A DNA stretch of 64,000 nucleotides. Source: Aspidiotus rigidus. Taxonomy: Eukaryota; Arthropoda; Insecta; Hemiptera; Diaspididae. Below, in pieces: positions 22,168 to 62,526 of the stretch. Under the pieces are notes generated by a model. It ran no database searches. It saw nothing but the letters and a program-made list of their open reading frames with translations, and had not been told where the DNA came from. The translations under genes and the position numbers were made by a program. Location: contig JAVHKY010000004.1 in assembly GCA_035079385.1 (NCBI GenBank), forward strand, positions 19,313,001 to 19,377,000, in the 5' to 3' direction. Position 1 is the stretch's first letter. Every line of letters starts with the position of its first letter.

Positions 22168-23221
22168 AGAGAAAAAAAAAGAAGTCAGCAGCAGCAACAG
22201 AACCGAAGTTTTGATGAAATTAGTATGTCTTGTCACACTCACCGTCCAGAACGCGTTGTACGTTCAGTTTCTAAAATTTTCAAGACTCTCTGCCAAAGAC
22301 GAGTTGTTCATCACATCGACGGCGGTGTGCCTCGCCGAAGGACTTAAATTGTGCTCCAGTTGCTTACTCATGGTGACGTACGAGAAGTCGTGGAGGTCTT
22401 TCCATATGTTTTTTTACAACTCGATATTCGTGAAACCGTTGGACTCGTTAAACGTAGGCATTCCGGCCGTTTGCTACGTCATCATGACCAATCTGACGTA
22501 CGTGTCTGGCACCCATCTGGACGTCATCACCTTTCAAATCATCTCACAACTGAAGATTCCTGCCACCGTTGCATGCTCCATGCTCCTCCTAGGAAGTAGT
22601 TTTCGTAAATTGCAGTACTTGTCGTTGATGATGTTGATGGTGGGTGCCGCTGTCGTACAGGTATCCGAAATAGACGATCGGTCGAGCAATATGATCGACG
22701 AAAACGCGGTTAAAAAGTTCCTCATTCCGAACCGAACACTCGGAATTGTAACCGGAATGATCGCCTGTGCCTTGTCCGGTTTTGCGGGCGTTTATTTCGA
22801 AAGGATACTAAAAACGACTAACCTATCGGTTTGGGCTAGGAACGTACAGCTGAGTATCCTGTCATTGCCGCCGGCCTTTGTACAGATCTTGGTCTTCGAT
22901 TGGGAACAAGTCAATACGAAAGGTTTCTTTCACGGGTACAATTATTTCGTGTGGATTGTGATATTATTGCAAGCGCTCGGTGGTCTCATTATTGCCTTGT
23001 CGATGAAGTTGGCGGATAACGTGTCCAAGGGATACGCAACGGCCGCTTCGATCGTCGTGTCCGGCATTAGTTCCACTTTAATATTTCAGTATAGGTTCAA
23101 CTATCAATTTGCTTTCGGTGCTGCGTTGGTGGTGCTTTCCATACCTTTCTACGCCATCACGATAAGATCGAACAAAATTGAAGCCGTGAAGATGGATCCA
23201 GAAAGAGGACAAGAAAGTTAA
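22168..23221 (+). CDS. UDP-sugar transporter, SLC35A family, main exon
   Basis: Encodes a nucleotide-sugar antiporter of the Golgi/ER membrane (UDP-galactose / UDP-GlcNAc / CMP-sialic acid class) that exchanges cytosolic UDP-sugar for luminal UMP. The exon follows a TTTCAG acceptor at 22167. With proposed exon 1 the protein has 393 residues; if translation starts at the first ATG in this exon (22214) it has 335, still near the usual family length of 320-400. About ten hydrophobic segments are visible. Family signatures are GFAGVYFERILK (about residues 247-258 of the spliced form), then SVWARNVQL, and KLADNVSKGYAT (from about 323), the substrate-site helices. The tail is short and hydrophilic. 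No frameshift is seen. The exact sugar cannot be assigned from sequence. Confidence 0.9.
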
Positions 23222-31545: not shown

Positions 31546-31840
31546 TTAATAATTATTATTATTACGCGGGGTGTACTCGCGAATTTCTGAATCACACGCG
31601 GGGTAGAGATGTGCACGGACGCACGCTTGCACGGACGCACGGTAATTAATTATTTAATTATTTAATTATTTGATTATTTAATTATTTAATTATTTAATTA
31701 TTTAATTATTTAATTATTTAATTATTTAATTATTTAATTATTTAATTATTTAATTATTTAATTATTTAATTAATAATTAATTAATTAATATAATTATTTA
31801 TTATTATTACGCGGGGTGTACTCGCGAATTTCTGAATCAC
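31485..31840. repeat. ATTTAATTATTTAATT array between 40-bp direct repeats
   Basis: A long run of TTTAATTA-type short tandem repeat, preceded by (ATTT)n. It is bracketed by two identical 40-bp copies of a segment containing ACGCGGGGTGTACTCGCGAA, at 31556-31595 and 31801-31840. The second copy abuts the start of the Penelope-like open frame. Confidence 0.85.
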
Positions 31841-32945
31841 CACCCAACGTACCTCCTCGAACCAGGTGTTACTTAATCATATTCCCTACTGGCACAGGTA
31901 CGTTGATGACGTTCTATGTACCTGGACTGGTCACCCAGATCTCCTTGGTGAGTTTCTGAGGTATCTCAATTCCTGGTACCCTTCCATCAAATTTACGTTG
32001 GAAATAGGGGTATTTTCCATCAACTTTTTGGATTTATCGATCTCTATAATAGACGGTATCCATAAGTTTGGAATTTACAGGAAAGATACTACGACCGATG
32101 TTTTAGTCCACGGTGGTTCGTTCGGTCCTGTTGCTCATAAGATGGCTGCTTTTCATAGCCTAGTTCACAGACTGACTCGTATTCCGTTGAGTCAATCTGC
32201 TTTTAAGAAAGAATTACTTACCATAAAACACCTGGCTAGAGTGAATGGAGTCAATGTCGACGTTGACGTGATGGTTCGGAGGAAAGTTACGAGGAGCCTT
32301 CTTGATTCCACCATCTCCCTCCCCCGAGACACGATCCGTGATCGCCGTTTGCGTTGGATCAGTCTCCCTTTCCTGGGGAATTTCTCCCAGCAATTGGGTC
32401 GGGCCCTTCGCCCGTTTGGTTTCAGACCCGCGTTTTACAACCTCACCACAGTCAAGAGGTTGTTTGTGAGACTGAAGGATCCCATACCGGTTGATGAAAG
32501 GAGTGGTGTTTATAAGATGGAATGTGAGGATTGTGGAGGCTTTTATATTGGTGAGACCAGCCGCCAGATGAAAGTTAGAGTAGCTGAGCACCTGAAGTCT
32601 TGGAAGAAGGGACGCTTAGGGGAGTCAGCTTTCGCTGATCATTTGATTAACAGTGGCCACAGTTTCCGCGAGGGATCCGAAAAGCTCCTCCATAAGGAAA
32701 ATTCCTACCGTAAACGTATCGCCCTCGAGAATATAGAGATAATGCGTCACCTCAACACTGACGGTATCACTATACTCAACTCGTACATTCCGGAAGATGG
32801 CTTGATCGAACAGGTTTATGATTCACACCGTGATTTCTCGTTCGGACGATCTTAATACCTCTTTCTTCTCATTCGTTCGTCAGTTGCTTTCATTTCAGGT
32901 TTGAAGATGGTTGTTTAACCGAAAGCGCTCCCTTCGTTTTTATTT
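31841..32945 (+). CDS. Penelope-like element, RT tail plus GIY-YIG endonuclease
   Basis: Open frame from at least 31866 to 32855. Residues near the start carry RYVDDVL, the YxDD catalytic motif of reverse transcriptase, so the upstream RT fingers and palm are missing and the copy is 5'-truncated. After a thumb-like region comes a GIY-YIG endonuclease. It has SGVYKMECEDC with a CxxC pair, FYIGETSRQ with the invariant arginine following, GESAFADHLINSGHSF and a downstream Glu in ALENIEI. This RT plus GIY-YIG order defines Penelope-like retroelements. The ORF is intact to its stop, so the insertion is fairly young or was once selected. It sits inside the hAT relic. It is 63-bp-inverted-repeat-free, unlike the copy at 59.6 kb. 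Confidence 0.88.
32901..32930 (+). other. Conserved 3' hairpin of Penelope-like element
   Basis: After the stop codon lies TTGAAGATGG, then TTGTTTAACC, then GAAAGCGCTC. GGTT pairs with AACC around a GTTT loop, and GAAAGCGCT follows. The other Penelope-like copy (60584-60595) has GGCT/AGCC in the same place, a compensatory pair change. The GA-rich strand, stem and GAAA order recalls the hammerhead cores known in Penelope-like elements, but the catalytic core is not intact here. Confidence 0.5.
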
Positions 32946-36193: not shown

Positions 36194-37140
36194 TTATCGT
36201 TTTGTCATACATTTTTCAAAAGGCTCGTGACTTTTGAATAGCCCTTCACTAATTTTTGCCCCCAAACTTTTCCTCAATTTCGGGTCCTCTATCATCGTTA
36301 TATGATTTCCTTTTATGGAAATGACGCGAATATTTCTCGACGGAGAGTATACTTCCCAGCCCAACTTTGACATTCTAAATATCTCTTTTTGTTTGTTCAT
36401 ATGATCTTTTAGCTTATTTTGTAAGCAAACATGACCTGGAGTAAATTCGTCGAACTCTGTCGCTTTGAATAAATTCACTGGAAATGACAGGGTATTTATT
36501 TTGTAAGACTCTACCATTTTTCCATACGAGTAAATCTGTTTCCATAGTTGAATATCTCTTTCTATATCTATAATTTTCATTTCAACGCTAATCTTTTTTA
36601 TTTCTTCGATAACTCCTGCGAGATCCATTTTGCTCATGAAATCCCACCATACTGGGTCATTAACAATTTTGGGAAAAACATTACTCTTTGTAATAAAACT
36701 GAGGAAGGAATCTGTTTCCTCGAACTCCATTTTACAGTACGGAGGGTACGTATCGATCAAGCCTACATACTGAACGATATGATGATCAAATTGACCGCTC
36801 GTGAGCTGATGAGCTATTTCATACGCAAGGATACCACCAGAGGAATACCCAGCAATAGCATATGGTCCGTTGGCTTGAACACTTTTCATTATACGAATCA
36901 TTCTGCTGGCCATTTTTTCCATACTTTGTGATAGATTTTCTTCAAGCTTTGGCCATGGCAGAATATAAACAGGGAAATTGCAATCTATGTGATGCATTAA
37001 TGAGAAAGCGTAAGAATGATTTCCTACGCCCGTGGGTACAAAAAATAGGGGGGTCTGACTACCGAAACCACGAGCCGGAATCGCGTAGTCCATACGCAGA
37101 TGCCCAGTGCGATCAGCCTCAAATAAAGCGAGGTTGCTCA
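36194..37140 (-). other. NRPS terminal thioesterase domain
   Basis: Type I thioesterase of the alpha/beta-hydrolase fold that releases the peptide. TPLFFVPTGVG opens the domain, the nucleophile elbow is GYSSGG near 36840-36860, and a GNHITMIEDP motif near 36285-36315 supplies the catalytic histidine. A presence at the C-terminus and normal size (about 260 residues) mark a complete assembly line end. It is intact in frame but lies downstream of both lesions. Confidence 0.88.
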
Positions 37141-40100
37141 TTATTGGATGACGGAATAAATCACTAGTACGCGTTTTTAGACCATATTGTATTGCACGAC
37201 TGCCAAACTGCATGGCAAGTACAGAATTCCCACCAAGTCCGAAGAAATTATCATGACGACTAATGCGCTCAACACCCAGTAGAGAACTCCAGATAAAAGA
37301 TAATTTCTCTTCAATCTCATTTGCCGGTGCTTCATACACCTGGCGAGCAAAAGAATCATCATCTGGTGGTGGAAGAGCTTTTTGGTCAAGTTTTCCATTT
37401 GGAGTGAGGGGCAAGGCGGTTAAACGTACAAATGCACTTGGTATCATGTAGTCAGGTAGTAATGTAACTAGATAATTTCTCAGATCTTGAGCTGTGAATG
37501 AATCTGTCTCCAACACTAGGTAAGCTATCAGATTTTTGTCTACGTCGTCACCCTTTGCAACCACAACTGCTTCTTTTATATTAATATATTCTAACAGGAG
37601 TGCTTCTATTTCCGCAGGTTCAATGCGAAAACCTCGCAACTTTATTTGACCGTCAATTCGTCCTAAATAAATGAGATTTCCCTCTGACACATAACGTGCT
37701 TTATCGCCAGTACGGTAAATTCGTGCGACAGGATGTCCAATAAAAGGGTTAGAAATGAAACGTACTGCTGTTAGGTCTGGATTGTTGAGATAGCCTCGGC
37801 TAACTGTAGTACCTCCGACGTACAGCTCCCCCTCAGCACCTAAAGGTACTAGTCTAAGTAGTGAGTCCAAGATGTAAACCTCTACATCGTGGAATGGTCG
37901 TCCAATTATATTACTATCATCAGGTGATCTTACCTCGTGACAAATAGCCTGAATTGTTGTTTCTGTATTTCCGTACATATTCATGAGGACTGTTGATCTG
38001 TCTGAATATAACTCAAACCATCTATTCAATACACACAAGTCCAGTTCCTCACCCCCAATAAAGATATATTGTAGTATGTCACATTGTAGACTATTTTTTC
38101 TAGCTTGTAATAACATTTTAAAGGCAGAAGGTGTTTGGTAAAGAACAGTGATATTAGAATCGCAAATCCATTCATAGAAATTAAAAGGAGAACGGATGGT
38201 ATTGAAAGGAACAATTGCTAATGAACCACCATACCCAAGGGATCCCCATATTTCCCATACAGAAACATCGAAGGAAATAGAACTAAAAAGACACCATTTT
38301 TTCTCTTTGCTAAATTCAAATTTCTCGTGAGTGACATCAAAGAGTTTTGTCAGCTGACGATGCTCAACCATTACTCCTTTAGGTACTCCAGTTGAACCTG
38401 ATGTATAGATTACGTAGGCAAGATGGCGTGGTCTGAGACCTAGCTCATCTGGTTGTGGATTGTTTGCATTTAGATTGATGGATAAGGGTTTATCTAAATT
38501 GACCATTGGAACATCGTGAGGACCAAGTGCATCTCGACCAGATTCATCCACCAGTAGATAAAATGGTTCAGAATCATTCAGAATATTAATTAATCGCTGA
38601 CTTGAATAAACTGGATCAAGGGGAACATAAGCTCCTCCAGCTTTCAAAACTGCCAAAAGGGCCACAACAAGATTTGGACAACGAGAAACGCAAATTGCGA
38701 CCCTTGTATCTGGTTTTACCCCGCGATCAAGGAGGTAATGGGCCAATTGGTTTGCGCGGTTATTAAGCTCCATATAGCTCAAAGTGGAGCCCTCAAATTC
38801 TAGTGCTGATGCATGGCTATTCAAGTCGACCTGAACTTCAAAATACTCATGAAGACAAAGATCAGGGGAATAATGACTTGTAAGAGTTCCATTCCAGGTT
38901 TCAATTGTAAGAATTCTTTCAGCGTATGGTAAAATATTCAATGTTTGTATAGGTTCTTGAGATTTAGTTTCTAGGGCAAGAATTAGGGATAACAATGCCT
39001 CCTGCATGTAAGAACATATTCTTTCAGGCATTAATGGTTGAACTAGTTGTACTGTTAGTCCTAATCCATTCCCGTAATCTTCAACTGACAATGTCAGTGG
39101 ATAATTATTACGCTCTTAACCACCTAGATATTTTACTCCTGGAATATTTAGCTCCTTGGAATTTCGGTTATGCCGATAGTTCAGTAGTGCACTATATAGT
39201 GGCATACTAGCTGGTATCCGACTACATCGTTGAGCCAAACTCAGTAATGTATGTTCATGAGACAGCAGAGCGCTCAATCTTTCTTGCGTTTCACGTATGG
39301 CGCTTTCAGCATCACTCAAATCTATATTCATGCAAATAGGTAGAGCATTAATCCACAACCCTATTGCATTCTCACTACTTCCTCCGTCTTTCATTCGACC
39401 AAATAAGACAGTTCCAAATACCACTACATCTTGTCTGCTTAGTGAAGAAAGTACCAATCCATAGGCTAAGTGACACATACTAGCTATACTAACCTCTAAT
39501 CCTTGAGCTTGAATGCATAACCTCTCATAGATTGTCTGAGGTAGATGGTATGTAGACTCCGTAACATTTGTTCCATCCAGTTTAATATTACGGAGTCCAA
39601 AAGGTAAAGTTGGTTCATCAATGCCAGCCAGCATTTCACTAAAGAATTTGGTCTGCTCTTTAGGATTGTCCCCTAGAAGGGCGTGAGCCACAAGATTTCG
39701 GTAAGGGATAGGAGGTTGCAATTCTTCCTGTTGATCGCTTATTATCATTTTAATTTCAGCATGTAGAATTTCCATGGTAGCATGGTCGCAAAGAAGATGG
39801 TGTAGAAGGAGGATGGCATAACAATCAGACATAGACTCCTGCCCCACAACAAGTCGTATCAAAGGAGGCTGAGACAGATTCAATGAATAGTGACGCGGAT
39901 TATACATCCTTTTCAACTGTTCAAGGATATCTTTTGTAGAATCTGGTAAGTTTGCTTTCACCAAAACTGATTCTACTTGTCGCAATACCACCTGCGCTGG
40001 TTCACTCAAGTCCTCCCACAAGAAGGCTGTTCGGAAAACATCATGGCGTTCAACCACTTTCTCAAGAGCATCATAATAATTCTTGAATGCCACTTGATTA

Positions 40101-43100
40101 CTAAAATGGAGTTCGGATGAAAGTAGATAAGGATCTCCCTCAGTCACATTTAAGTGATGAAAGAGTATACCGTTTTGTAAGGGACCCAAACTATAAATGT
40201 CCTGAATATTAGAAACTCCTCCTGAGACTTGTGATACTATTAAATCAATATCCTTTTGTGATAGTGATATAAGAGGTAGCATTTCGGGAGTGATGGTTGT
40301 GCAGTCAGGTTCAATTAGGTTCGGTGGAATTTCAAAGGCTTGATAATTCTTGATAGTTTCTGCCATGACGGCCAGGGTGGGTGCTTCAAATACAGCTTGG
40401 ACACTCGTACCTAAACCAAATTGTCGCAGTTTAGCCACGAATTTTATTATTAGTAATGAGTGTCCGCCAAGTGCAAAAAAGTTATCGTGTCGACTAATCT
40501 GTTGTTTTTTTAGTATTGCACTCCATATAGCAGCCACCTTCTCCTCTATTTCCCCCTGTGGAGCTTCATATATTTGATGAGCGATAGAATTTTCATCTGG
40601 ATCGGGTAAAGCTCGACGGTCCAGCTTACCATTACAATTGAGAGGTAAGACTGATAGTAATACAAATGCTGTTGGAATCATAAAATCAGGTAATCTTGTG
40701 ATCAAATGATCCCTCAAGTCCCGTGCATTGAGCAAACCTTGATCCGCTACCACATAGGCTACCAACTGTTTATCTAAATTTTGTTCTCGAAGTATCACTG
40801 CGGCCTCCCTAACATAAGGATGTTCTACTAAGCTCTTCTCTATTTCTGCCGGTTCAATACGAAAACCACGTATCTTGATTTGATGGTCTACGCGTCCAAG
40901 AAAGACCAGATTACCATCTGGTAGATAATGAGCTCTGTCACCTGTACGGTACATTCGGGAGCAAGGGCCACTAAATGGATCAGCTAAAAAGTATTCAGAA
41001 GTAAGCTGGTGGAGGTTGAGGTATCCCCGAGCTACTCCTGCACCGGCAATATAAATTTCACCTTCAGCACCTATCGGTACTGGTTTCCTCTCCGTATTTA
41101 GTAGGTATATTTGAAGGTCAGGAAGAGGTCGTCCAATCGATATAATTGCGTAATTTATTAGAGACTCGATTTTGTAAACAGTAGCAAAAACCAGAGTTTC
41201 GGTAGTTCCATAAATATTGTATAGCAAAGTGGATTTTTTTCTATTCACTTTAAACCACTTATTAACAATCGATGGATCTAAGGTTTCTCCTCCTATTATT
41301 ATGTATCGCAACATATCACATTTTGAGTCATTGTTCATAGCTTGTAATAAGGCCTTGAAGAAAGAAGGTGTCAGATTTAATACAGTAATCCCGGAAGCAC
41401 AAAGCCAGTTGTAAAAGGTTTTCGTAGCTCGAATCATATTCAGCGGAGGAATAGCTAATGAAGCACCATAAAGTAAAGCTCCCCATATCTCCCACAGAGA
41501 AACATCAAATGAAAATGAGTGGAGAAGACACCATTTATCCACACTACTAAAATCAAAATTTGCACGTGTTACATCAAAGAGCCTTGTGACATTACAATGC
41601 TCTACCATCACGCCCTTTGGTTCCCCTGTTGAACCTGAAGTGTAAATCACATAGGCAAGATTTGCTGATGTCAGATTCAGATTTTTTGGCCGTGGATTAG
41701 ATATAGGTAAGTCTCCAGGAAGGTCGAAGTCCATATTAATAACAGGGATACTTGATGTTCCCAAGGCATCTATACCGGCTGAATTCACTAGAAGAAGCAT
41801 AGGTTCAGAACCGTACAGAATGTTCATCAATCGTTTACTTGAATAAGCGGGATCGAGCGGTACATAGCAGCCACCAGCTTTCAAAACGGCCAGAAGGGCC
41901 ACAACAAGATTTGGACAACGAGAAAGACAAATTGCGACCCTTGTATCTGGCTTTACACCGCGATCAAGAAGGTAATGAGCCAATTGGTTTGCGCGGGTAT
42001 TAAGCTCCATATAGCTTAAAGTGATACCCTGAAACTCTAGTGCTGGGGCATGGCTATTCAAGTTGACCTGAACTTCAAAATACTCGTGCAGACAAAGATC
42101 AGGAGAATGATGACCTGCGAGAGTTTCATTCCATGTTTCAATTAGAAGAATTCTTTCAGCGTATGGTAAAATATTCAATGTTTGTATAGGTTCTTGAGAA
42201 TTAGTTTCTAGGGCAAGAATTAGGGATAACAATGCCTCCCGCATATAAGAGCATATGCTTTCAGGCAATATTGGTTGAACTACTTGTACTGTAAATCCTA
42301 ATCCATTCCCGTAATCTTCAACTGACAATGTCAGAGGATAATTTGTACGCTCTTCACCACCTAGAAATTTCACTCCTGGAATATTTATCTCCTTGGAATT
42401 TTGGTTATGCCGATAGTTCAGTAGTGCACTAAATAGAGGCATACCAACTGGTATCCGACTACATTGTTGAGCTAGACTCAGTAATGTATGTTCATGAGAT
42501 AGCAGAGCGCTCAGCCTTGCTTGCGTTTCCCTTATGGCAGTTTCAGCATCACTCAGATCTATATTTATGCAAATTGGTAGAGTATTAATCCACAACCCAA
42601 TTGCATTTTCACTACTTCCTCCGTCTTTCATTCGACCAAATAAGACAGTTCCAAATACCACTACATCATGTTTGCTTAGTGAAGAAAGTACCAATCCATA
42701 TGCCAAGTGACACATACTAGCTATACTAACCTCTAATCCTTGAGCTTGAATGCATAACCTCTCATAGATTGAATGAGGTAGATGGTATGTAGACTCCATA
42801 ACATTTGTTCCATCCAGTTTAATATTGCGGAGTCCAAAAGGTAAAATTGGTTCATCAATGCCAGCCAACATTTCACTAAAGAATTTGATCTGCTCTTCAT
42901 GATTGTCCCGTAGAAGAGCCTGAGCCACAAGGTTTCGGTAAGGGGTGGAGGTTGCAATTCTTCCTGTTGATCGCTTATTATCAGTCTAATTTCGGCTTGT
43001 AGAATTTCCATGGTAGCATGGTCGCAAAGAAGATGGTGTAGAAGGAGGATGGCATAACAATCAGACATAGACTCCTGCCCCACAACAAGTCGTATCAAAG

Positions 43101-46100
43101 GAGGCTGAGACAGATTCAATGAATAGTGACGCGGATTATACATCCTTTTCAACTGTTCAAGGATATCTTTTGTAGAATCTGGTAAGTTTGCTTTCACCAA
43201 AACTGATTCTACTTGTCGCAATACCACCTGCGCTGGTTCACTCAAGTCCTCCCACAAGAAGGCTGTTCGGAAAACATCATGGCGTTCAACCACTTTCTCA
43301 AGAGCATCATAATAATTCTTGAATGCCACTTGATTACTAAAATGGAGTTCGGATGAAAGTAGATAAGGATCTCCCTCAGTCACATTTAAGTGATGAAAGA
43401 GTATACCGTTTTGTAAGGGACCCAAACTATAAATGTCCTGAATATTAGAAACTCCTCCTGAGACTTGTGATACTATTAAATCAATATCCTTTTGTGATAG
43501 TGATATAAGAGGTAGCATTTCGGGAGTGATGGTTGTGCAGTCAGGTTCAATTAGGTTCGGTGGAATTTCAAAGGCTTGATAATTCTTGATAGTTTCTGCC
43601 ATGACGGCCAGGGTGGGTGCTTCAAATACAGCTTGGACACTCGTACCTAAACCAAATTGTCGCAGTTTAGCCACGAATTTTATTATTAGTAATGAGTGTC
43701 CGCCAAGTGCAAAAAAGTTATCGTGTCGACTAATCTGTTGTTTTTTTAGTATTGCACTCCATATAGCAGCCACCTTCTCCTCTATTTCCCCCTGTGGAGC
43801 TTCATATATTTGATGAGCGATAGAATTTTCATCTGGATCGGGTAAAGCTCGACGGTCCAGCTTACCATTACAATTGAGAGGTAAGACTGATAGTAATACA
43901 AATGCTGTTGGAATCATAAAATCAGGTAATCTTGTGATCAAATGATCCCTCAAGTCCCGTGCATTGAGCAAACCTTGATCCGCTACCACATAGGCTACCA
44001 ACTGTTTATCTAAATTTTGTTCTCGAAGTATCACTGCGGCCTCCCTAACATAAGGATGTTCTACTAAGCTCTTCTCTATTTCTGCCGGTTCAATACGAAA
44101 ACCACGTATCTTGATTTGATGGTCTACGCGTCCAAGAAAGACCAGATTACCATCTGGTAGATAATGAGCTCTGTCACCTGTACGGTACATTCGGGAGCAA
44201 GGGCCACTAAATGGATCAGCTAAAAAGTATTCAGAAGTAAGCTGGTGGAGGTTGAGGTATCCCCGAGCTACTCCTGCACCGGCAATATAAATTTCACCTT
44301 CAGCACCTATCGGTACTGGTTTCCTCTCCGTATTTAGTAGGTATATTTGAAGGTCAGGAAGAGGTCGTCCAATCGATATAATTGCGTAATTTATTAGAGA
44401 CTCGATTTTGTAAACAGTAGCAAAAACCAGAGTTTCGGTAGTTCCATAAATATTGTATAGCAAAGTGGATTTTTTTCTATTCACTTTAAACCACTTATTA
44501 ACAATCGATGGATCTAAGGTTTCTCCTCCTATTATTATGTATCGCAACATATCACATTTTGAGTCATTGTTCATAGCTTGTAATAAGGCCTTGAAGAAAG
44601 AAGGTGTCAGATTTAATACAGTAATCCCGGAAGCACAAAGCCAGTTGTAAAAGGTTTTCGTAGCTCGAATCATATTCAGCGGAGGAATAGCTAATGAAGC
44701 ACCATAAAGTAAAGCTCCCCATATCTCCCACAGAGAAACATCAAATGAAAATGAGTGGAGAAGACACCATTTATCCACACTACTAAAATCAAAATTTGCA
44801 CGTGTTACATCAAAGAGCCTTGTGACATTACAATGCTCTACCATCACGCCCTTTGGTTCCCCTGTTGAACCTGAAGTGTAAATCACATAGGCAAGATTTG
44901 CTGATGTCAGATTCAGATTTTTTGGCCGTGGATTAGATATAGGTAAGTCTCCAGGAAGGTCGAAGTCCATATTAATAACAGGGATACTTGATGTTCCCAA
45001 GGCATCTATACCGGCTGAATTCACTAGAAGAAGCATAGGTTCAGAACCGTACAGAATGTTCATCAATCGTTTACTTGAATAAGCGGGATCGAGCGGTACA
45101 TAGCAGCCACCAGCTTTCAAAACGGCCAGAAGGGCCACAACAAGATTTGGACAACGAGAAAGACAAATTGCGACCCTTGTATCTGGCTTTACACCGCGAT
45201 CAAGAAGGTAATGAGCCAATTGGTTTGCGCGGGTATTAAGCTCCATATAGCTTAAAGTGATACCCTGAAACTCTAGTGCTGGGGCATGGCTATTCAAGTT
45301 GACCTGAACTTCAAAATACTCGTGCAGACAAAGATCAGGAGAATGATGACCTGCGGGAGTTCCATTCCAGGTTTCAATTGTAAGAATTCTTTCAGCGTAT
45401 GGTAAAATATTCAATGTTTGTATAGGTTCTTGAGAATTAGTTTCTAGGGCAAGAATTAGGGATAACAATGCCTCCCGCATATAAGAGCATATGCTTTCAG
45501 GCAATATTGGTTGAACTACTTGTACTGTAAATCCTAATCCATTCCCGTAATCTTCAACTGACAATGTCAGAGGATAATTTGTACGCTCTTCACCACCTAG
45601 AAATTTCACTCCTGGAATATTTATCTCCTTGGAATTTTGGTTATGCCGATAGTTCAGTAGTGCACTAAATAGAGGCATACCAACTGGTATCCGACTACAT
45701 TGTTGAGCTAGACTCAGTAATGTATGTTCATGAGATAGCAGAGCGCTTAGCCTTGCTTGCGTTTCCCTTATGGCAGTTTCAGCATCACTCAGATCTATAT
45801 TTATGCAAATTGGTAGAGTATTAATCCACAACCCAATTGAATTTTCACTACTTCCTCCGTCTTTCATTCGACCAAATAAGACAGTTCCAAATACCACTAC
45901 ATCATGTTTGCTTAGTGAAGAAAGTACCAATCCATATGCCAAGTGACACATACTAGCTATACTAACCTCTAATCCTTGAGCTTGAATGCATAACCTCTCA
46001 TAGATTGAATGAGGTAGATGGTATGTAGACTCCATAACATTTGTTCCATCCAGTTTAATATTGCGGAGTCCAAAAGGTAAAATTGGTTCATCAATGCCAG

Positions 46101-49100
46101 CCAACATTTCACTAAAGAATTTGATCTGCTCTTCATGATTGTCCCGTAGAAGAGCCTGAGCCACAAGGTTTCGGTAAGGGGTAGGAGGTTGCAATTCTTC
46201 CTGTTGATCGCTTATTATCAGTCTAATTTCGGCTTGTAGAATTTCCATGGTAGCATGGTCGCAAAGAAGATGGTGTAGAAGGAGGATGGCATAACAATCA
46301 GACATAGACTCCTGCCCCACAACAAGTCGTATCAAAGGAGGCTGAGACAGATTCAATGAATAGTGACGCGGATTATACATCCTTTTCAACTGTTCAAGGA
46401 TATCTTTTGTAGAATCTGGTAAGTTTGCTTTCACCAAAACTGATTCTACTTGTCGCAATACCACCTGCGCTGGTTCACTCAAGTCCTCCCACAAGAAGGC
46501 TGTTCGGAAAACATCATGGCGTTCAACCACTTTCTCAAGAGCATCATAATAATTCTTGAATGCCACTTGATTACTAAAATGGAGTTCGGATGAAAGTAGA
46601 TAAGGATCTCCCTCAGTCACATTTAAGTGATGAAAGAGTATACCGTTTTGTAAGGGACCCAAACTATAAATGTCCTGAATATTAGAAACTCCTCCTGAGA
46701 CTTGTGATACTATTAAATCAATATCCTTTTGTGATAGTGATATAAGAGGTAGCATTTCGAGAGTGATGGTTGTGCAGTCAGGTTCAATTAGGTTCGGTGG
46801 AATTTCAAAGGCTTGATAATTCTTGATAGTTTCTGCCATGACGGCCAGGGTGGGTGCTTCAAATACAGCTTGGACACTCGTACCTAAACCAAATTGTCGC
46901 AGTTTAGCCACGAATTTTATTATTAGTAATGAGTGTCCGCCAAGTGCAAAAAAGTTATCGTGTCGACTAATCTGTTGTTTTTTTAGTATTGCACTCCATA
47001 TAGCAGCCACCTTCTCCTCTATTTCCCCCTGTGGAGCTTCATATATTTGATGAGCGATAGAATTTTCATCTGGATCGGGTAAAGCTCGACGGTCCAGCTT
47101 ACCATTACAATTGAGAGGTAAGACTGATAGTAATACAAATGCTGTTGGAATCATAAAATCAGGTAATCTTGTGATCAAATGATCCCTCAAGTCCCGTGCA
47201 TTGAGCAAACCTTGATCCGCTACCACATAGGCTACCAACTGTTTATCTGAATTTTGTTCTAGATGTATCACTGCGGCCTCCTTCACGTAAGGATGTTCTA
47301 CTAAGCTCTTCTCTATTTCTGCCGGTTCAATACGAAAACCACGTATCTTGATTTGATGGTCTACGCGTCCAAGAAAGACAAGATTACCATCTGGTAGATA
47401 GTAAGCTCTGTCACCTGTTCGATACATTCGAGAGCCAGAGCCACTAAATAGATCAGCTACAAAATATTCAGATGTAAGCTTTTGGCGATTGAGGTATCCC
47501 CGAGCTACTCTTGCACCGCCAATATAAATTTCACCTTGGACACCTATTGGTACAGGAATTCCCAAGCTGTCTAGTAAGTAGATTTTAAGGTCAGGAATAG
47601 GTCGTCCAATCGATATTATGTCGTATTTCAGAGGCTCAATTTTGTAAAAAGTTGCAAAAACTACAGTTTCGGTAAGACCATAAGAATTGTATAATATGGG
47701 AGGCTTTCTTACATTCATTTCAAACCACATATTAACAATTACTGGATCGAGTACATCTCCTGCTATTACCAAATAACGCAACATATCTGATTTGGAACTA
47801 TCACGTTTAGTTCGTGAAAACGTTCTGAATGCAGAAGGAGTCTGATTTAATACAGTAACCCCGGAGGTACAAATCCAGTCGTAAAAATTAAGGGTGGACC
47901 GAATCATGTTCAGAGAAGGAATAGTCAATTGACCACCATTAAGTAAAGCTCCCCATATCTCCCATACAGAAACATCAAATGAAAGTGAGTGGAAAAGACA
48001 CCATGTGTCCTCGTTGGAAAACCTGAATTCAGAACAAGTAATGTCAAATAACCTTGATATATGTCGATGTTCAACCATGACGCCTTTAGGGGTTCCAGTT
48101 GAACCTGAGGTATAAATGACATAGGCAAGATGGGATGGTATGAGATTGAGATTCTCGGTTTGTGGATTGTCTGCGCTTAGATTACTTGGCAGAGGATGAT
48201 CCATATTAATTACTGGTAATTGATGTGTTCCAAGAGCTTCTAGACCAGTTGCATCTGTCATAAGCAGCATAGGTTCAGCATCCTTCAATATGGTATTCAA
48301 GCGTTTACTTGAGTGTACCGGATCTAGGGGTACATATGCCCCACCTGCTTTTAGGATACCTAGTATTGCCACCACCAGTTTTGTATGACGCGCCATACAT
48401 ATAGCTATTTTGGTGTCAGGTTTCACTCCAAGTTGAATGAGGTAATTCGCTAATTGATTGGCTTGGAAATTGAGATCAAAATAGCTCAAAGTTTTTTTGT
48501 CAGATTTTATTGCCGGTGCTTGTTGATTTCGTTTTACCTGGGCTTCAAATAGTTGGTGTATAAAATGGGAAGTAGAACCGCAAGATATTGTTCGATGGTT
48601 CCAGGTTTCAGTTTGCAATGTACACTCTGACCAAGGTAAAACATTCAATTCTTGCACTTTTTGACTTGGGAAATTTGTAAGTGAATCCGCGAGAGATGAA
48701 AGTGCTTCACGCATATAAGCAGTAATTCTATCTCCCGATAATGGAGCAATCACTTGTGTTGTAATACCCAGACTATGACCATTATCCTCTATGTTAATTG
48801 CCAGAGGATAATTTGTCCTTCCATAAAAACCCATAACATCTACTCCTGGAAGGGACAGTTTTGTAGAGAGATTATTATGTCGAAAATTAAGAATTGCGCT
48901 GAATAACGGTGTGTTTGATGGAATATTACTACATCGTTGAGCCATTGTCAATGGAGCATTTTCATGAGCCAGTAAATTGCTTAGACGGATATGTGTTTCA
49001 CGCACACACGATTCAACTGTTGTTTGATCTATATCCAGTCGGAAGGGTAACGTATTCATCCATAAACCTAGCGCTCTTGTATTTTCTCCTCCATTTTTCA

Positions 49101-51883
49101 AGCGTCCTAACAACACTGTCCCAAAAACAACGGCATTTAATCCAGTAACACAGGAAAGTACTCTTCCAAAAGCCAGATGACACAAACTGGCTAAGCTAAC
49201 TTGTAAGTGCTGAGCTTGCAAACGTAAGGTATTGTTTAGGGTTGGAGACAATAGACATTCTACTTCAGTGATTTCAGCACCGCTCACATGAATATCTCTT
49301 AAACCAAATGGCAATGTCGGCTCCTCAATATCAGATAACATATCACTAAAGAATTTGGTATGTTCTTCAGAGCTGAAATCTAGGAATGATTGGGCTACAC
49401 AATTTCGGAAAGGAATAGAAGGCATCAGGTTTTTTTCTTGGGCCATTAATATTGTCTGAATTTCAATATCAAACATTTCCTGAGTGAAACGATCCCAAAT
49501 CAAGTGGTGGTGCAGTTGTACTGCCTCCCAGACCCCAGAAGTAAGTGGGGCGACAATTAGATGAAATAAAGATGCTTTTGTCAAATCTAATCGGTAGTGT
49601 TTTGGATCAAACTGGTTCTCAAGATCCCCTGCTACATTCTGAAATGAGCACTCTGTGAGTACGGAAGGAACTTTACGCCAAACTACCTGCGCTGGTTCAC
49701 TGAGCCCTTCCCAAAGAAAAGCTGTGCGCAAAATATCATGTCGTTCAATAACTTTCTGGAGAGCTACAGTGTAACTATCCAGTGCATTCCTCTCACTGAA
49801 TCTCATAAAAGTCCGTAAGAGATAAGGGTCCTCTTTCTGTGTATTCATGTGATGTGATAGCATACCGTGCTGTAATGGGGTCAAACTATAGATATCCTGG
49901 ATATTGGAAACACCTCCTGAGACACTCGCTACAATGCTATCTATGTCACATTGAGAGAGAGTAATCAATGACAACATTCCTGGAATAATTTCTGTACTAT
50001 CAAGTTGTATCAAGTTATGGGGAACATAGACTGGTTGATAATGACCTACTCTTTCTGCCAAGGCTGATAAATTTAAGCTATTGAATATCGCTTCAACACT
50101 AGTACTTAGTTCAGACTGGTGTAACTGAGCTAACATTTCACCTACATGTAGAGAATTACCACCAAGTGCAAAAAAGTTATCATACCGGCCAACTTTATCA
50201 ATATTTAAAATACTTTTCCAGATGGCTGCTAGGGTTTCTTCTCTAAAGCCTTCAGGTTTTTCATACATTTGGTGTGCAAAAGAAATGTCTTGAAAAGTGG
50301 AAAGAGCTTTCACATCTAGTTTTCCGTTGACAGTAAGGGGCAATGTTTTCAAATTCACAAAAGCAGATGGCACCATATAATTAGGTAGAGCTGCTAGCAG
50401 ATGGTTCCGTAATTCCTGCGCTGTTGCTGATTCTTCATCTGATGTCACAAAGGCAACTAAGTATTTCTTTATATCAGAACCTTTGGACAGCACAACTACT
50501 TCTTTAATTTTAGGGTGTTCCGAAAGTCGTGCTTCTATCTCTGCTGGCTCGATACGGAAACCACGAAGTTTTATTTGTTGGTCTAAACGTCCCAAATAAG
50601 TAATGTTTCCATTGGGCATAAAGTATCCTTGGTCGCCAGTACGGTATAATCTAGCACCTGGTATCTCACTGAAGGGGTCAAGTAGGAAATTTTTAAGAGT
50701 CAGATCAGGTTTATTTAGATATCCACGGGCTACACCTGCACCACCGATGTAAATTTCCCCTTGGCAACCTGATGGAACAGGCTCTCTATTGTCGTCTAAG
50801 ATATAAATACAAAGGTGAGAAAGAGGTCGACCAATTGAAGTATTCCACTTAGATGCACTCAATTGATGAAAAGTAGCATGAACTGTCGTTTCTGTAGTAC
50901 CATACATATTTACAAGAATTGTTTTACATTGGGGAAATTTCTCATTCCAATCGGCCAAAATCTGGGAATTTAAGGCCTCACCTCCAAAAATCACCCATTT
51001 TAGTTGATCAGATTCTGAACAGAATTCTTTTCCTTGCAAAAAAGTTCTAAAAGCCGAAGGAGTCTGATTAAGGATGGTAATGCCGGAAGTACAAATCCAT
51101 TTATAAAAGTCAATTGCGGAGCGACTAGTACTGTAAGGTACTATTGCTAACTGTCCTCCATTACTTAATGACCCCCATATCTCCCAAACGGAAAAATCAA
51201 AGGAGTAGGAATGGAATAAGCACCATATATCATTTTGGTCAAACGAAAATACTCCTCGTGTTACACTGAACAAGCGTACTATTTGTCGATGCTCAACCAT
51301 CACTCCTTTTGGTACTCCGGTTGAGCCTGACGTGTAAATAACATACGCTATATTTGCAGGTGTCAAGTGCAGTTCATCGGGTGTTGGATTGTGAGTACCT
51401 AATTCGGTTGGAAGAGGTTTGTCCAGGTCTATAATTGGTATTTTATGAGACTTGAGCGCAGTCCACCCCTTTGTATCAACTATGAGGCAAAAAGGAGTTG
51501 CGTCATTTAAAATATCAGTCAATCTTTGCCCCGGATAGGCAGGATCTAATGGTACGTATGCTGCACCGGCTTTTAAGATGCCAAGTAAAGCCACGATCAA
51601 CGATGGACCTCGGTCCACGCATAGTGCGACCCGCATTTCCGGAATCACACCTTTTTGGATCAAATAATAGGCCAGCTGATTTGCTTTATTATTAAGCTCG
51701 TTATAGGTAAGTTTTGTACCTTCGTAAACAACAGCAGTAGCGTGTCTAACTTGTTCTACTTGCATTTCGAATAGTTGGTGAACACAGAGAACTCCAGACG
51801 GGTAGGTCACCGCTGTATGGTTCCACTTGTATAGTAGTGATCTGCGATAAAATTCCGATGTATTTGTCAATTTGGATCCTTTT
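36194..51883 (-). CDS. Five-module non-ribosomal peptide synthetase, two lesions
   Basis: A giant multidomain enzyme that builds a peptide by thiotemplating. Order, N to C: A1-T1 / C2-A2-T2 / C3-A3-T3 / C4-A4-T4 / C5-A5-T5-TE. There are five adenylation domains (each with YTSGSTG and NGKLD), five carrier sites (GGNS or GGHS), four condensation domains and one thioesterase (GYSSGG). This predicts a pentapeptide released by hydrolysis or cyclisation. It is one exon with no intron, bacterial in style, yet it has animal repeats on both sides and splices to RPB1-like exons. Exon start 51883 follows TTTCAG. Read straight, the frame breaks at a one-base deletion near 42946 and a TAA at 39116-39118. 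Without them the protein would be about 5200 residues. No 4'-phosphopantetheinyl transferase or tailoring gene is in the window. Confidence 0.93.
37200..40260 (-). other. NRPS module 5 (C-A-T), carries nonsense codon
   Basis: The C domain is similar to those of modules 3 and 4 in its first half and more diverged in its second. TAA at 39116-39118 replaces the GAA of the twins (GGTGAAGAG in modules 3 and 4), in the same frame as the following ORF. The A pocket D-V-W-Y-F-G-M-I-Q is distinct from the others and unassigned. The carrier site GLGGNSV lies near 37230. Confidence 0.87.
39116..39118 (-). other. In-frame nonsense codon in NRPS
   Basis: The plus strand reads TTA here, so the coding strand reads TAA. 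Modules 3 and 4 have TTC (coding GAA, Glu) at the equivalent place. The flanking codons on both sides stay in one frame and homologous to the twins, so this is a single G-to-T change on the coding strand. The downstream ORF has no ATG nearby to restart. Confidence 0.9.
40380..43500 (-). other. NRPS module 4 (C-A-T), carries frameshift
   Basis: Near copy of module 3: the same HHLNVTEGD and HHLLCDH motifs, the same A pocket D-V-W-N-I-G-I-V-F, and GGHSL near 40470. The C domain contains a one-base deletion near 42946. Here the plus strand reads GGGGTGGAGG where the twin (46180) reads GGGGTAGGAGG. The frame is lost in the middle of the C domain, and an ORF in the next frame runs on to 39116. Confidence 0.88.
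42946..42947 (-). other. One-base deletion (frameshift) in NRPS
   Basis: Compared with the tandem twin (around 46180) and the equivalent place in module 5 (around 39705), one A is missing from the plus strand between these bases. It is not in a homopolymer. Downstream homology continues in the next frame, so the loss is a single event. Confidence 0.88.
43610..46740 (-). other. NRPS module 3 (C-A-T), tandem twin of module 4
   Basis: The C domain has HHLNVTEGD near 46620, matching the HH[I/L]xxxxGD motif reported for dual condensation/epimerisation domains, and HHLLCDH at the catalytic histidines. The A pocket reads D-V-W-N-I-G-I-V-F (unassigned), identical to module 4. The carrier site is GGHSL near 43700. 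Equivalent points in module 4 lie 3236 bp away, with only scattered substitutions visible. Confidence 0.88.
46850..49960 (-). other. NRPS module 2 (C-A-T)
   Basis: The C domain starts near 49960. Its N-terminal motif is SLTPLQHGMLSHHM followed by ED rather than GD, and its active-site motif is HHLIWDR (HHxxxD present, near 49500). The A-domain core is near 48100; the pocket reads D-V-W-N-V-A-S-V-F, which I do not recognise as a published code. The carrier site is GGHSL near 46940. From about 47400 downward the sequence is almost identical to module 3, so the 3' end of this module belongs to the duplicated tract. Confidence 0.85.
50100..51860 (-). other. NRPS module 1 (A-T, threonine code)
   Basis: Loading module without a condensation domain. 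The A3 motif YTSGSTGVPKG lies near 51300-51350, A10 NGKLD near 50320, and carrier serine GGNSL near 50150. Aligning the substrate pocket to the GrsA Phe A-domain gives D-F-W-N-I-G-M-V-H plus the invariant K, the well known threonine code. The residues just before the domain (YRRSLLYKWN) match the usual C-to-A linker, suggesting an upstream C domain was lost or never transferred. Confidence 0.85.
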
Positions 51884-51967
51884 CTGAAACTAATTGTTTG
51901 GATCATTCTACTATACTACTGTTTATTTGATTTTGATAAAAAAAAACATTGTTGTCATTATACTTAC
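51884..51967 (-). other. 84-nt spliceosomal intron joining RPB1-like exon to NRPS
   Basis: Minus strand: exon end CTCGA, donor GTAAGTATAATG (a near-perfect consensus), a T-run, and acceptor ATTAGTTTCAG, then the synthetase. The upstream exon ends in phase 2 (GA) and the downstream exon begins with A, giving Glu and an uninterrupted frame. Unspliced, the RPB1-like frame would stop at once (GAG TAA), so splicing is needed to reach the synthetase from the upstream ATG. Confidence 0.8.
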
Positions 51968-54234
51968 TCGAGCAATTCAGGGACATCAATATCAACCATG
52001 GTGGCAACGTAAAATTGTAATTTCTTTAAATTTTCTCTGACCACAAGAGTCGTAGCTCCATTCGTTTTCAATTTTTGTAATTCATTATTGCAATTTATTA
52101 CGCTATTTATGTTCTGTGTGAAATTTACCTACAGGAAAGCAATTTAAAAATGATAAGTCCTATATCCATCCTGTAGTATTTTATTCAAGACCACTCAACT
52201 AACTCTATCACGCTGTTGCGATGAAGGAAAAAGAGGAATTGGCAGTACAGTAACAATCATCCATTCTGGCCTAGCAATACGTGGATCTAAGCCTAAGATA
52301 TTACAGTCCCCTTCGCTGATACGTTTGAATATTTGGAAAACTCGTTCAGCGCTTAAGGAGATCGTCTCACACTCTCTTCCGTCTTCAATGATCCACTTTG
52401 CCTTGACTTCCATGCCGATCCAACAAAAGATTGGTTGACACTGTCCACAGCCATTGCAATTTTGTGTGCTTTTCTATAACAATAAATTCTCCATTTTTAG
52501 AAAAAAAAAACATGTAGGTACTTGAGAGAAATGGTACTAAGATTTGGGAAAGGAGTTGTAAGAATATAAGAAAATCCACATATACATCGTTGGGCTCAGA
52601 TGGGGGGAGGGCAAAAAATTCCACCAGTTCCGTTATGGTTTGATGTTCAGTTCTGAGTTACAACTTTTTCACCTGCCATACTTGTTGTTTTTTCCATTTT
52701 CCCTAAGGTTGTGTTCGCACAGTTCGAAAGAGTATTTTGATTTTTTTACTCCCAAGAGAGTAAAGAACCTTAATCTACCGCTCATGTATCTCAAGTAGGG
52801 CAATTTTCATGAACTAAGTAAGTTGGCTACTTGGGTCGAAGGATGAGTGTTGCACGTACACAAGAGTAAGTTGTTATTTTTCTTTTTGTGAGGTCATACT
52901 TTGAGATACATTAGGTATTACCTCCTCTAATTTTTCATCATCAAGGACGATTGCGTGGTCACTTTTGAAAGTACTTTGAGCTTTGCATAAATCGTGGATG
53001 TAGACTAGCCGTTGGCGAGGTTGATTTTTGGTTTCCAACAAAATTGTCTTCACTGCAGGATGACTCTATCGAAAATTAAAGAATAATATCAAATCATTGT
53101 TTATAAAGTACTTAAATCCAAATTGGGGCTACTAGCTTTTGCTCTCTACTGAAATTCTGTGAGTTAGGCGGACACATTCCAATTAGGAGAAGGCTGTTAC
53201 AAAGAGAATATCTGATTTGCTCGGTCTCCCCCCTTTCGAATGGGCAGACTATCGCACCGACCATTACAGCTGAGGGTTCCCAACATTTTGCAGTCAATCA
53301 TTAGCAATATTGATATTGCTGAGGTCTGCAGGTACCAGCTTGCTATCGATTGGCTGGCGGAGACTCGACATTACGTGGACATAGTTGAGGGGTCGAGACG
53401 ACCCGATAGTTCTACAAAAGTGACTATCGGGGTAAGGCCCTGAGCTGGTTTCAAGAAGAGAGAGCATGGGGATCTGTATGAATAGCACTAATGCGTGAAG
53501 GAACAATGTAAGGCTTTGAGCATGCGTGACCGTGACTCAGATAGAACGAGTAGGAGTGGTTCAAATGTGTTTTGGAAATCTTTTACAGGAAGTTCAATAA
53601 AAAGGCGGAGTTGGCTCGACAGCAAGATGTGTCACGATAGAAACAGGTGCAAGTAGCACTTTCAATATCTTGATGGACTAGGCGTGCCGGATAGGGTTAC
53701 ACTCCTACAACCTCATCTTGACCATTACTGTTGACAGATGCGTAGAAATGATAATCCGGACCAATAATACGCTTTCCTTGAAGACGATAAAACGACACAC
53801 ACATCTTAATTGCAGCCTGAAAGTTACGATGCAATCAAACTTCCAACATAACCCTTTACTGCGTTGATTTTTGGAAGTCTGCGTGAGCCAACGTCCTCTT
53901 GGTGTTTAGATTCAATCGCTGTAGAGCACGCTGGCTGTAGACCGCAGCATTTATTTGCAGGTAGAACGCAACACTAGTAGTGGATGACGGATAGAGCTCA
54001 AACGCGAACAGTGAAATTAAAGGTAGATCGCGAGCGCTAGTATGCACCTCCAAATGGTGCTGACATTCGTGAGTGATTTCTTAAGACTTACCGGATTTAC
54101 GAGCAATTTCGAACAGTAAAAACAGATGCTTTCAAGGATTGCCATCGTTTCTGTGATGAATGCCATATGAAATACGGGTTCTACGAGTTCAATGTGTCCA
54201 AAAGTGTGGTAATCCTGGGTAGTATCCTTCAATT
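51968..54234 (-). CDS. RPB1-like (Pol II largest subunit) clamp exons, fused to NRPS
   Basis: Four exons matching the N-terminal clamp of RPB1: A 54234-54092 ([23 protein letters not shown]; donor GTAAGT), B 53065-52922 ([15 protein letters not shown]; donor GTAATA), C 52473-52204 ([33 protein letters not shown]; donor GTTAGT), D 52113-51968 ([18 protein letters not shown]; donor GTAAGT). Phases are 0/0, 0/0, 0/0 and 2/2 into the synthetase exon, with no stop. The second clamp zinc site (CFYC, HDLC, GCG) is kept. The first is lost: CPGHFGH of the family reads DYHTFGH. The loop after TVLP is about a dozen residues shorter than usual. The rest of RPB1 is absent. This is either the translated 5' part of a chimeric protein or a decayed 5' leader. 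Confidence 0.82.
51994..52005 (-). promoter_or_regulatory. Perfect Kozak start inside RPB1-like exon
   Basis: Minus strand GCCACCATGG with ATG at 51999-51997. The methionine corresponds to the Met of the conserved VATMVD motif of RPB1. From it, ten further residues are read before the intron and then the synthetase. It could be the real initiation codon of the synthetase even if the upstream RPB1-like exons are not translated. Confidence 0.6.
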
Positions 54235-54883: not shown

Positions 54884-55809
54884 TAGACCGGGAGCAAACC
54901 GAAAATTTTTTAATGGAAGGATCTAAAGTTATCGTACCTCATGTCACTTTTTATATTCTTTGTTTCTTGGGCCAGAAAGATCCTGCACTCCTGCTTAATA
55001 TCTGAAATTTGCGTCGAATTTTAGTATAAGACATACGACTTAAGAATCGATCACTCTCGTAGACCTGACAGGCCGGATTATGGTTCCAGACGAGGTAAAA
55101 TTGCGAAATTTGGCCTTGAAACCGCGATTTTAACAATGAACGTAAAGAAAATCTGAACATTATAGGGTTCCTTGCTGAATATTATCGAAAACATCTTTCT
55201 ACATTCATGAATACACCAATCCCAACTTAAATATTTCTCGTGAATCTGCGGATTTTACTTACTAGTAAAGAAAAAAGGCCGTATTGAACTCGTGGGTCAA
55301 GTAGCGTTTCAACTCGTTGCGTTTCCGTCATGAGTGGAATACGAGTGACGGGAAACGTTTCACTTTATATAAACCTACTCTTTACTCACTTGTAAAATAA
55401 TTTGAGAGCCGATTTTCCAAAACTCTTTATTCATGAATGTAGTAAGATATTTTCAATAATTTCAGTACGGAACACTATAATATTCAGATTTTTTTTACGT
55501 TTATTGTTAAAATCGCAATTTCAAGGCCAACTTTCGTACTTTGACCTCGTCTGAAACCATGAATCCGGCCTGTCAGGTCTACCAAAGTGATCAATTCTCA
55601 AGTCGTACGTCTTATACTACAATTCGAATTTCAGATATAGCGCGATCTTTCCAATTAAAAATCTAACAATTTTTGGCCATTCGTGGCTCTCCGGCGACTC
55701 AGCGCTGCGAGAGTTCAAGGACGTCTCTTCTCAAATGAAGAACTCGGAAAATAAGGGTACGGTAATTTTAGATCCCTCCAATAGAAAATTTGCGGTGAGC
55801 ACCCGTCTA
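54884..55809. mobile_element. Long-terminal-inverted-repeat (foldback) element
   Basis: Two arms of roughly 330 bp face each other: left from TAGACCGGGAGCAAACCG (54884) to about 55215, right from about 55432 to GAGCACCCGTCTA (55809). Internal words such as GACCTGACAGGCCGGATTATGG and its inverse recur. The arms are clearly diverged (indels and substitutions). No coding capacity. It lies just upstream of the RPB1-like exons. Confidence 0.7.
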
Positions 55810-59660: not shown

Positions 59661-60620
59661 ATTCACTCTTGAAGTTGGCGGGTTGTCAATAAATTTTCTG
59701 GACTTGACCATATCCGTCATCGACGGTGTCCATGATTTCGGTATTTACCGTAAAAGTACTTCGACCGATATTGCTATCCACTGATCATCTTTCGTACCTT
59801 TTTCCCATAAAGTTGCTACATTTAATAGTTTAATATATCGCCTCACTCAGATCCCGTAGCGTTTAATAAGGAACTCGTGACGATAAAGCACTTGGCTAGA
59901 GTGAATCAGGTCAAAGTGGACATTGACCTTATGGTCTGTAGGAGACTTACAAGAAAAAGTCTCGATTCGACTACCTCCCTCCCCCGTCAAATGCATCTTG
60001 ATAGGCGTAAACGGTGGATTAAGATGCCGTTTTTGGGGAAGTTTTCTTTGGAGTTGAGCCGTGTCCTCCGTTCCTTTGGTTTCCGGCCGGCGTTTCATTG
60101 TACCAATACGGTGAAGAGCCTTCTGGTCACGTTAAAGGATCCGATACCGATGGCCGAGAGGGGGGGTGTTTATAGGGTGGCCTGTGGTGATTGCCCGAGC
60201 GTGTACATAGGGATGACTAGCCGTCAATTAAAAATTAGAGTCGATGAACACAGGAAAGCCTGGGAAAAAAGAAAAGTAGGGGAGTCGGCGTTTGGTGACC
60301 ACTTAATTGAATGTGGTCATAGTCTCAAAGAGGGATCTGAAGTTTTCCTCCACAGGGAAAAATCTTATTTTAGGCGCTTAGCATCAGAAGAAATTGAAAT
60401 TCATCGTCACCGAAATATTAAAGACATTACCGTGCTGAACAGGTACATTCCTGAGGAGGGATTGATTGAATTAGTCTATGAGGATGATTCACATTTCGAT
60501 GACTCGCTGGTTCAGTCATGACCTCCTCGTTCGTTGTTACTCGTTCTTGTTGGTGTTGGGTTCAGTCGCTTTACCGTGAGAATGGCTGTTTAGCCGAAAG
60601 CGCTCGGATTGTTTGACTTT
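59560..60620 (+). pseudogene. Second Penelope-like element, frame broken
   Basis: RT tail at 59572-59784 with RYVDDILCAW (YxDD motif), then a premature stop and frame change between 59780 and 59877. An open frame to 60521 follows with a GIY-YIG endonuclease: GGVYRVACGDC (CxxC), VYIGMTSRQ, GESAFGDHLIECGHS and a downstream Glu. It is 5'-truncated like the copy at 31.9 kb and clearly the same family, though diverged in protein sequence. The 3' hairpin GGCTGTTTAGCC followed by GAAAGCGCT is at 60584-60604. Confidence 0.85.
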
Positions 60621-61969: not shown

Positions 61970-62526
61970 CCTTAACGAAGTTAAACGAGGAACGCAGGGA
62001 ACCTGTTTTATGATTCGAGTGAGATTTGGTATTGAAAATTCAAGGAAGCCTAGATTTGGAGAAAGGTATTAAAAAGAAGGCCTAGACCAACTATTAGTGT
62101 AATATAATATAGTTGGATAAATCAGGTTCCTTGTTAAAATTTCCACTCTTACCTCGAGAGTCGAAAATTTTCCAAGTCCCCCTCCTATCATATATAGCTC
62201 GAGAGTCGAAATTTTTCCAAGTCCCCCTCCTATCATATATAGCTCGAGAGTCGAAATTTTTCCAAGTCCCCCTCCTATCATATATAGCTCGAGAGTCGAA
62301 ATTTTTCTAAGTCCCTCTCCTATCATCTATAGCTCGAGAGTCGAAATTGTTTCTAAGTCCTCCTCCTATCATATATAGCTCGAGAGTCGAAATTTTTCTA
62401 AGTCCCCCTTCTATCATATATAGCTCAAGAGTCGAAATTTTTCTAAGTTTTTCGCTGGACGGCGGACGGCGGACGGCGCACGGCAGATTTCTCAAATAGC
62501 CCCCCATAAAACAGGTTCCCTGTTAA
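61970..62526 (+). mobile_element. Satellite-bearing element, well-preserved copy
   Basis: Opens CTTCCTTAACGAAGTTAAACG, then CAGGGAACCTGTTTTATG. The CCTAGA-type block follows, then seven or so 45-bp units in an almost clean 45-base register (for example TCGAA at 62161 and 62206). The GGACGGCGGACGGCG block comes next and the copy closes with CATAAAACAGGTTCCCTG. This copy gives the clearest structure: inverted sub-terminal 18-mers enclosing a minisatellite. Confidence 0.8.

Follow-up and report, generated by a model that had tools for sequence, protein, structure and literature searches.

Animal nuclear genomes carry multimodular nonribosomal peptide synthetases (NRPSs), and springtails and a mite are among the arthropods named in the Results and Discussion of one survey of them (Suring et al. 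2023, PMC10531068). By word search, the main text of that paper contains no Sitodiplosis, Contarinia, Cecidomyi-, midge, Diptera, Hemiptera, fusion or RNA polymerase. Gall midges carry other horizontally acquired genes (PMC8455502), and the word "nonribosomal" does not appear in the passages of that source examined here. Titles and abstract openings point to no earlier account of NRPSs in gall midges or of RPB1 fused to an NRPS; full texts and subscription journals may differ. The nearest kin of the NRPS described here are uncharacterised gall-midge genes, of which nine were compared: LOC129569885, LOC129568840, LOC129573419, LOC129568577 and LOC129568576 in Sitodiplosis mosellana, and LOC116346579, LOC116351985, LOC116348934 and LOC116337195 in Contarinia nasturtii.

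The locus analysed here lies in a 64-kb stretch of contig, hereafter the window, and consists of four exons related to RPB1 (POLR2A) followed on the same strand by a five-module NRPS. Judged from sequence, the two may form one chimeric insect gene in which the RPB1-like exons are spliced in frame onto the synthetase, a reading we hold tentatively and at a little under an even chance. The features of the locus and its surroundings are collected in the table.

Features of the RPB1-NRPS locus and its surroundings (positions are those of the window)
Feature	Position	Strand	Remarks
RPB1-like exon 1	54234-54092	-	insect RPB1 residues ~80-116; homology from FGHIEL; CPGH before it absent
RPB1-like exon 2	53065-52922	-	insect RPB1 residues ~117-164
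RPB1-like exon 3	52473-52204	-	insect RPB1 residues from ~174; segment after P248 partly missing
RPB1-like exon 4	52128-51968	-	insect RPB1 residues to ~318; GTAAGT donor at end
Predicted phase-2 intron, 84 nt	51967-51884	-	GTAAGT...TTTCAG, 24% GC; RPB1-like exon 4 to NRPS
ATG in NRPS frame	51904-51906	-	within predicted intron; possible own NRPS start
NRPS ORF 1, 3060 aa	51915-42733	-	A1-T1-C1, A2-T2-C2, A3-T3, part of C3; end out of frame past lesion
NRPS ORF 2, 1289 aa	42985-39116	-	remaining C3, A4-T4, most of C4
NRPS ORF 3, 973 aa	39115-36194	-	end of C4, A5-T5-thioesterase; own stop
One-base frameshift	~42946 (42944..42949, approximate)	-	inside C3, relative to sister module copy
In-frame stop	39116-39118	-	C4 region
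Tandem ~3.24-kb module copies (modules 2 to 4)	38076-48492	-	mosaics, partly 100% identical
Dispersed ~45-bp tandem satellite	1-717, 6072-6188, 19334-20433, 62153-62448		unit like CTCGAGAGTCGAAATTTTTCTAAGTCCCCCTCCTATCATATATAG
Two related ORFs	31836-32855 and 59829-60521	+	66% DNA identity; GIY-YIG matches weak, below Pfam cut-off
Nucleotide-sugar transporter	22133-23221	+	PF04142 9.8e-89, one ORF, 362 aa

The RPB1 exons that the earlier note had read on the minus strand are borne out by profile searches. Their joined product of 238 residues matches PF04997 (E=1.8e-40, profile positions 70-281 of 312) and a solved RPB1 (phmmer, 1.2e-59), and 159 of 1486 candidates in a large protein set match it; chance similarity to RPB1 is rejected on these three results. 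Among the 120 listed of those 159 matches, the top six are Hemiptera, from five species, at 45-46% identity. In each of the four exons only the RPB1 frame is open, the other two frames holding 2-7 stops per exon. Since introns are retained, the piece is no processed retrocopy, and that origin is likewise rejected. A search of viral contigs for relatives of the piece gave five pattern matches, none of them confirmed.

Six insect RPB1s searched against the whole window recover the same four exons, spanning residues ~80-318, which we take to be the clamp region. Further RPB1 exons, including a start or 5' exon, are not found in the 64-kb window, where other matches are at chance level (best E 0.24), nor does it hold an exon for the remaining RPB1 domains, the active site or the CTD. 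Homology opens around residue 80, mid-way through the conserved CPGHFGHIEL motif, which indicates an RPB1 copy truncated at the 5' side and without a start. The earlier proposal, in which the synthetase captured RPB1's promoter, 5' exons and start codon, finds no support in this layout. A crude scan upstream for first exons with a donor in phase 1 returns eight candidates, all with slightly negative coding scores; the scan is low in power either way, because two of the four RPB1-like exons also score just below zero. Just upstream of exon 1, the contig carries an inverted repeat of ~215 bp (87%; 54998-55213 and 55428-55638).

The junction between the two parts is as the earlier note had described it, from the donor through the short intron to the acceptor that opens into the NRPS. 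The introns of the predicted gene measure 1026, 448, 75 and 84 nt, all four are bounded by GT...AG, and their phases are 0 for the first three and 2 for the last. Splice sites and phase are thus compatible across the junction, and no stop interrupts the joined frame from RPB1-like exon 1 into the NRPS. A TTTCAG acceptor in the given phase turns up by chance in 1.3% of 76-nt stretches, 20,000 of which were drawn at random from window DNA presumed to be non-coding; looser in-phase acceptors are commoner, at 3.6% for YYYCAG and 18% for the very loose YYYNAG. Read without splicing, exon 4 runs through GAG directly into TAA. NRPS homology begins at 51876-51846, and the ATG inside the predicted intron stands 10-20 codons earlier; an in-frame ATG arises by chance in 30% of random 22-codon open stretches (3714/12285). 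The adenylation core motif is found in 0 of the 120 listed RPB1-region matches (of 159; length limits ~630-2010 aa).

The synthetase has five modules, arranged as four A-T-C units and a final A-T-TE, in agreement with the earlier count. Core motifs are found for five adenylation (YTSGSTG), five carrier (LGG[NH]S) and four condensation domains (HHxxxD), and the terminal thioesterase matches PF00975 (E=1.2e-18) and carries a GYSSGG motif. Read by eye, the first adenylation domain (~51350-50800, minus strand) shows DFWNIGMVHK, presumably the code for threonine. The earlier statement that no stop intervenes is wrong further downstream, since a frameshift and an in-frame stop divide the modules into three ORFs, and no single intact frame crosses all modules in this assembly. 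Along a 1.8-kb stretch that matches its sister copy at 97.5-100% identity per 200 columns, no one-base gap occurs besides the frameshift, suggesting that this lesion is either recent or an assembly error. If both lesions were real and not assembly errors, the product would comprise at most the RPB1-like part and about two and a half modules.

Modules 2 to 4 are near-copies of one another in parts and diverged elsewhere. Identity between modules 3 and 4 is 100% across the first 2.2 kb of the aligned unit, and between modules 2 and 3 it is 97-100% across the last 2 kb. These mosaics, with fully identical stretches of 1-2 kb, suggest recent module duplication or gene conversion within a genome that is likely an animal's. 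Between copies, dN/dS is 0.39 (C2 versus C4) and 0.36 (A2 versus A3), values that could be computed in two of five comparisons, A3 and A4 being identical and dS saturated in two; the divergence of A2 from A3 may be partly older than arrival in insects.

Sequence searches place the synthetase with genes already present in insects. Four of the 120 listed NRPS matches (2530 scored) are from Sitodiplosis mosellana, at 53-55% identity, and the other listed matches, which are bacterial, fungal or unnamed, all fall below them at 41-50%. With the carrier-thioesterase part, the first five of 90 matches are gall midges (four Contarinia and one Sitodiplosis, 41-45%). In a condensation-domain tree, three window domains and 14 Sitodiplosis domains lie on one side with an SH-aLRT of 99. 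That tree was built by a quick method with no bootstrap from 61 of 98 domains, drawn from 26 of the 120 proteins and the window, with at most two domains per non-midge source, Sitodiplosis as the only midge and the frameshifted C3 left out; it carries flags for a long C1 branch and the odd letter make-up of the window rows. A more careful thioesterase tree of 29 proteins, picked from both match lists, and the window joins the window to seven gall-midge rows at 100/99, with bacteria outside and Serratia marcescens next. Within this group the midge rows form a cluster of their own at 99/97, and the window falls outside it on a long branch. An earlier thioesterase tree of 25 rows is concordant (window with gall midges, 99/98), and the condensation and thioesterase trees share composition warnings and long window branches. 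Ten pattern matches to thioesterase relatives in GTDB genomes gave no confirmed case.

These results are most simply read as an acquired gene that insects already carried. The earlier note had a transferred synthetase land in an intron of a partial RPB1 duplicate; the partial RPB1 and the bacterial ancestry of its neighbour hold up, and a recent landing is unlikely because related NRPS genes are already present in two gall midges.

The RPB1-like piece is strongly diverged and has nonetheless kept its reading frame. It is 44% identical to an arthropod consensus to which the 16 contributing arthropods are 79-94% identical, and its 238 codons hold no stop. Neutral decay simulated to 44%, with substitutions only and the consensus taken as ancestor, leaves no stop-free run in 1000 and a mean of 8.0 stops; milder targets of 52% and 59% leave one and two stop-free runs in 1000. 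Constraint was also scored on columns invariant in 19 arthropods; a column was called near-universal if 85% or more of 20 other sequences share it. Of the 50 aligned near-universal residues the piece retains 39 (39 of 54 if four absent columns are counted), versus 28 of 72 residues invariant only in arthropods (Fisher p=2e-5 for 39 of 50). Zero stops, set against neutral decay, and the retention of near-universal residues indicate that the piece likely remained a coding, folded domain while most of this divergence built up. Such selection need not have acted within the NRPS gene and could predate the truncation.

The near-universal losses fall in particular places. The 11 replaced residues include the whole of CPGH (C76, P77, G78 and H79 in Nezara numbering), which we take to be the first zinc motif, and the four absent columns (P249, V252, R253 and P254 in Nezara numbering) all lie in one segment, presumably the lid. 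The piece likely did not evolve as a polymerase. RPB1 trees set it beside stink bugs at 96/92 and 87/89, on a very long branch that makes the placement untrustworthy, with no gall-midge RPB1 among the named rows; trees constrained to group it with Diptera, or with the two beetles, are rejected weakly (p=0.021 and 0.026). The two parts of the locus are placed differently, the RPB1 piece leaning to Hemiptera and the NRPS to gall midges (Diptera).

The contig looks eukaryotic on both flanks of the NRPS locus. Members of the 45-bp satellite family lie on either side of it (1-717, 6.1, 19-20 and 62 kb), and the two related ORFs, which we take to resemble Penelope-type retroelements, also occur one on each flank. 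No tRNA genes and no Rfam landmarks were found in the window.

The chimeric gene would require that the exons be transcribed together with the synthetase, and the points in its favour are the open joined frame, the exons open in that frame only and the rarity of an in-phase TTTCAG. The selection seen on the RPB1 frame calls for an explanation, and so counts for it as well. Against it stand the missing RPB1 start, the ATG that the NRPS could call its own, the two lesions, the frequency of loosely defined acceptors and the want of any RPB1-like stretch in the nine gall-midge NRPSs. Most of these same points favour two adjoining units with no fusion protein, an account that we rate as a real possibility, distinctly below even. 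The NRPS would then begin at its own ATG with an A-first initiation module, and the RPB1 exons would belong to a separate truncated paralogue upstream, whose last exon, exon 4, may terminate at the TAA that follows it; that no start exon shared by the two parts was found in the window agrees with this. The acceptor just ahead of NRPS homology would then be a rare coincidence, the separate fragment would equally need a start, of which the window shows none, and the selection on it would require a cause of its own.

Decay of the whole locus, with the RPB1 duplicate and the NRPS both dead remnants and their continuous frame a by-product of recently coding sequences in tandem, is improbable. The frameshift and stop speak for it, as does an RPB1 piece without a start, CPGH or part of the lid; yet 238 RPB1 codons and the first ~2990 NRPS codons are free of lesions, every splice motif is intact, dN/dS between module copies is well below one, the simulation opposes long decay of the RPB1 piece, and the frameshift may be no more than recent or an artefact. 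A misjoin of RPB1-like DNA to a bacterial contig, which the earlier note had raised, is very improbable indeed and is rejected. NRPSs are mostly bacterial, which would suit it, but this one groups with gall-midge genes to the exclusion of bacteria and has a third-position GC of 31%, and the join sits within a clean GT...AG intron. Satellites, related ORFs and the transporter give a eukaryotic context on both sides, making a misjoin unlikely.

Under the chimeric reading, a partial, intron-keeping genomic copy of RPB1 would have come to adjoin a resident NRPS gene, and its coding frame would then have been retained by selection as the 5' part of that gene, while features specific to Pol II, namely CPGH and part of the lid, disappeared. 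The product would carry an RPB1-clamp-like domain ahead of the first adenylation domain, probably serving as a structural or interaction domain and not as a polymerase. The five carrier domains would be loaded with amino acids, and the thioesterase would free a short peptide. This fuller account, of an insect-built new gene in which a repurposed Pol II clamp domain is spliced to a horizontally acquired, module-expanding synthetase, is possible but a shade more doubtful than the fusion itself.

Transferred genes in animals need a host start, a promoter and often introns, and the chimera, if real, would offer a case in which their acquisition can be read. It could also show a polymerase domain gaining a second use, and would join a host domain to a bacterial assembly-line enzyme, a kind not found in the searches made. 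Even without a fusion, a multimodular NRPS lineage that this locus shares with gall midges, and of which the literature searches gave no description, points to possible insect-made nonribosomal peptides.

Compared with RPB1/POLR2A (PF04997), the window piece is homologous over residues ~80-318; it differs in being truncated at both ends, in its low identity to the consensus and in its lost motifs. NRPSs of Xenorhabdus, Photorhabdus and Serratia have the same domain types as the window NRPS and are among its nearest bacterial thioesterase relatives, at 31-35%, but they fall outside the group that it forms with midges. The gall-midge NRPSs differ from the locus in that an RPB1-like stretch is found in none of the nine (best E 3.0), and two from Sitodiplosis open, by eye, with a condensation-like stretch that the window NRPS does not have. 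They resemble it in their A-T-C modules, in the terminal thioesterase of seven of the nine (two models list none) and in identity, four being 53-55% identical to the searched NRPS stretch and five 41-45% in the carrier-thioesterase part.
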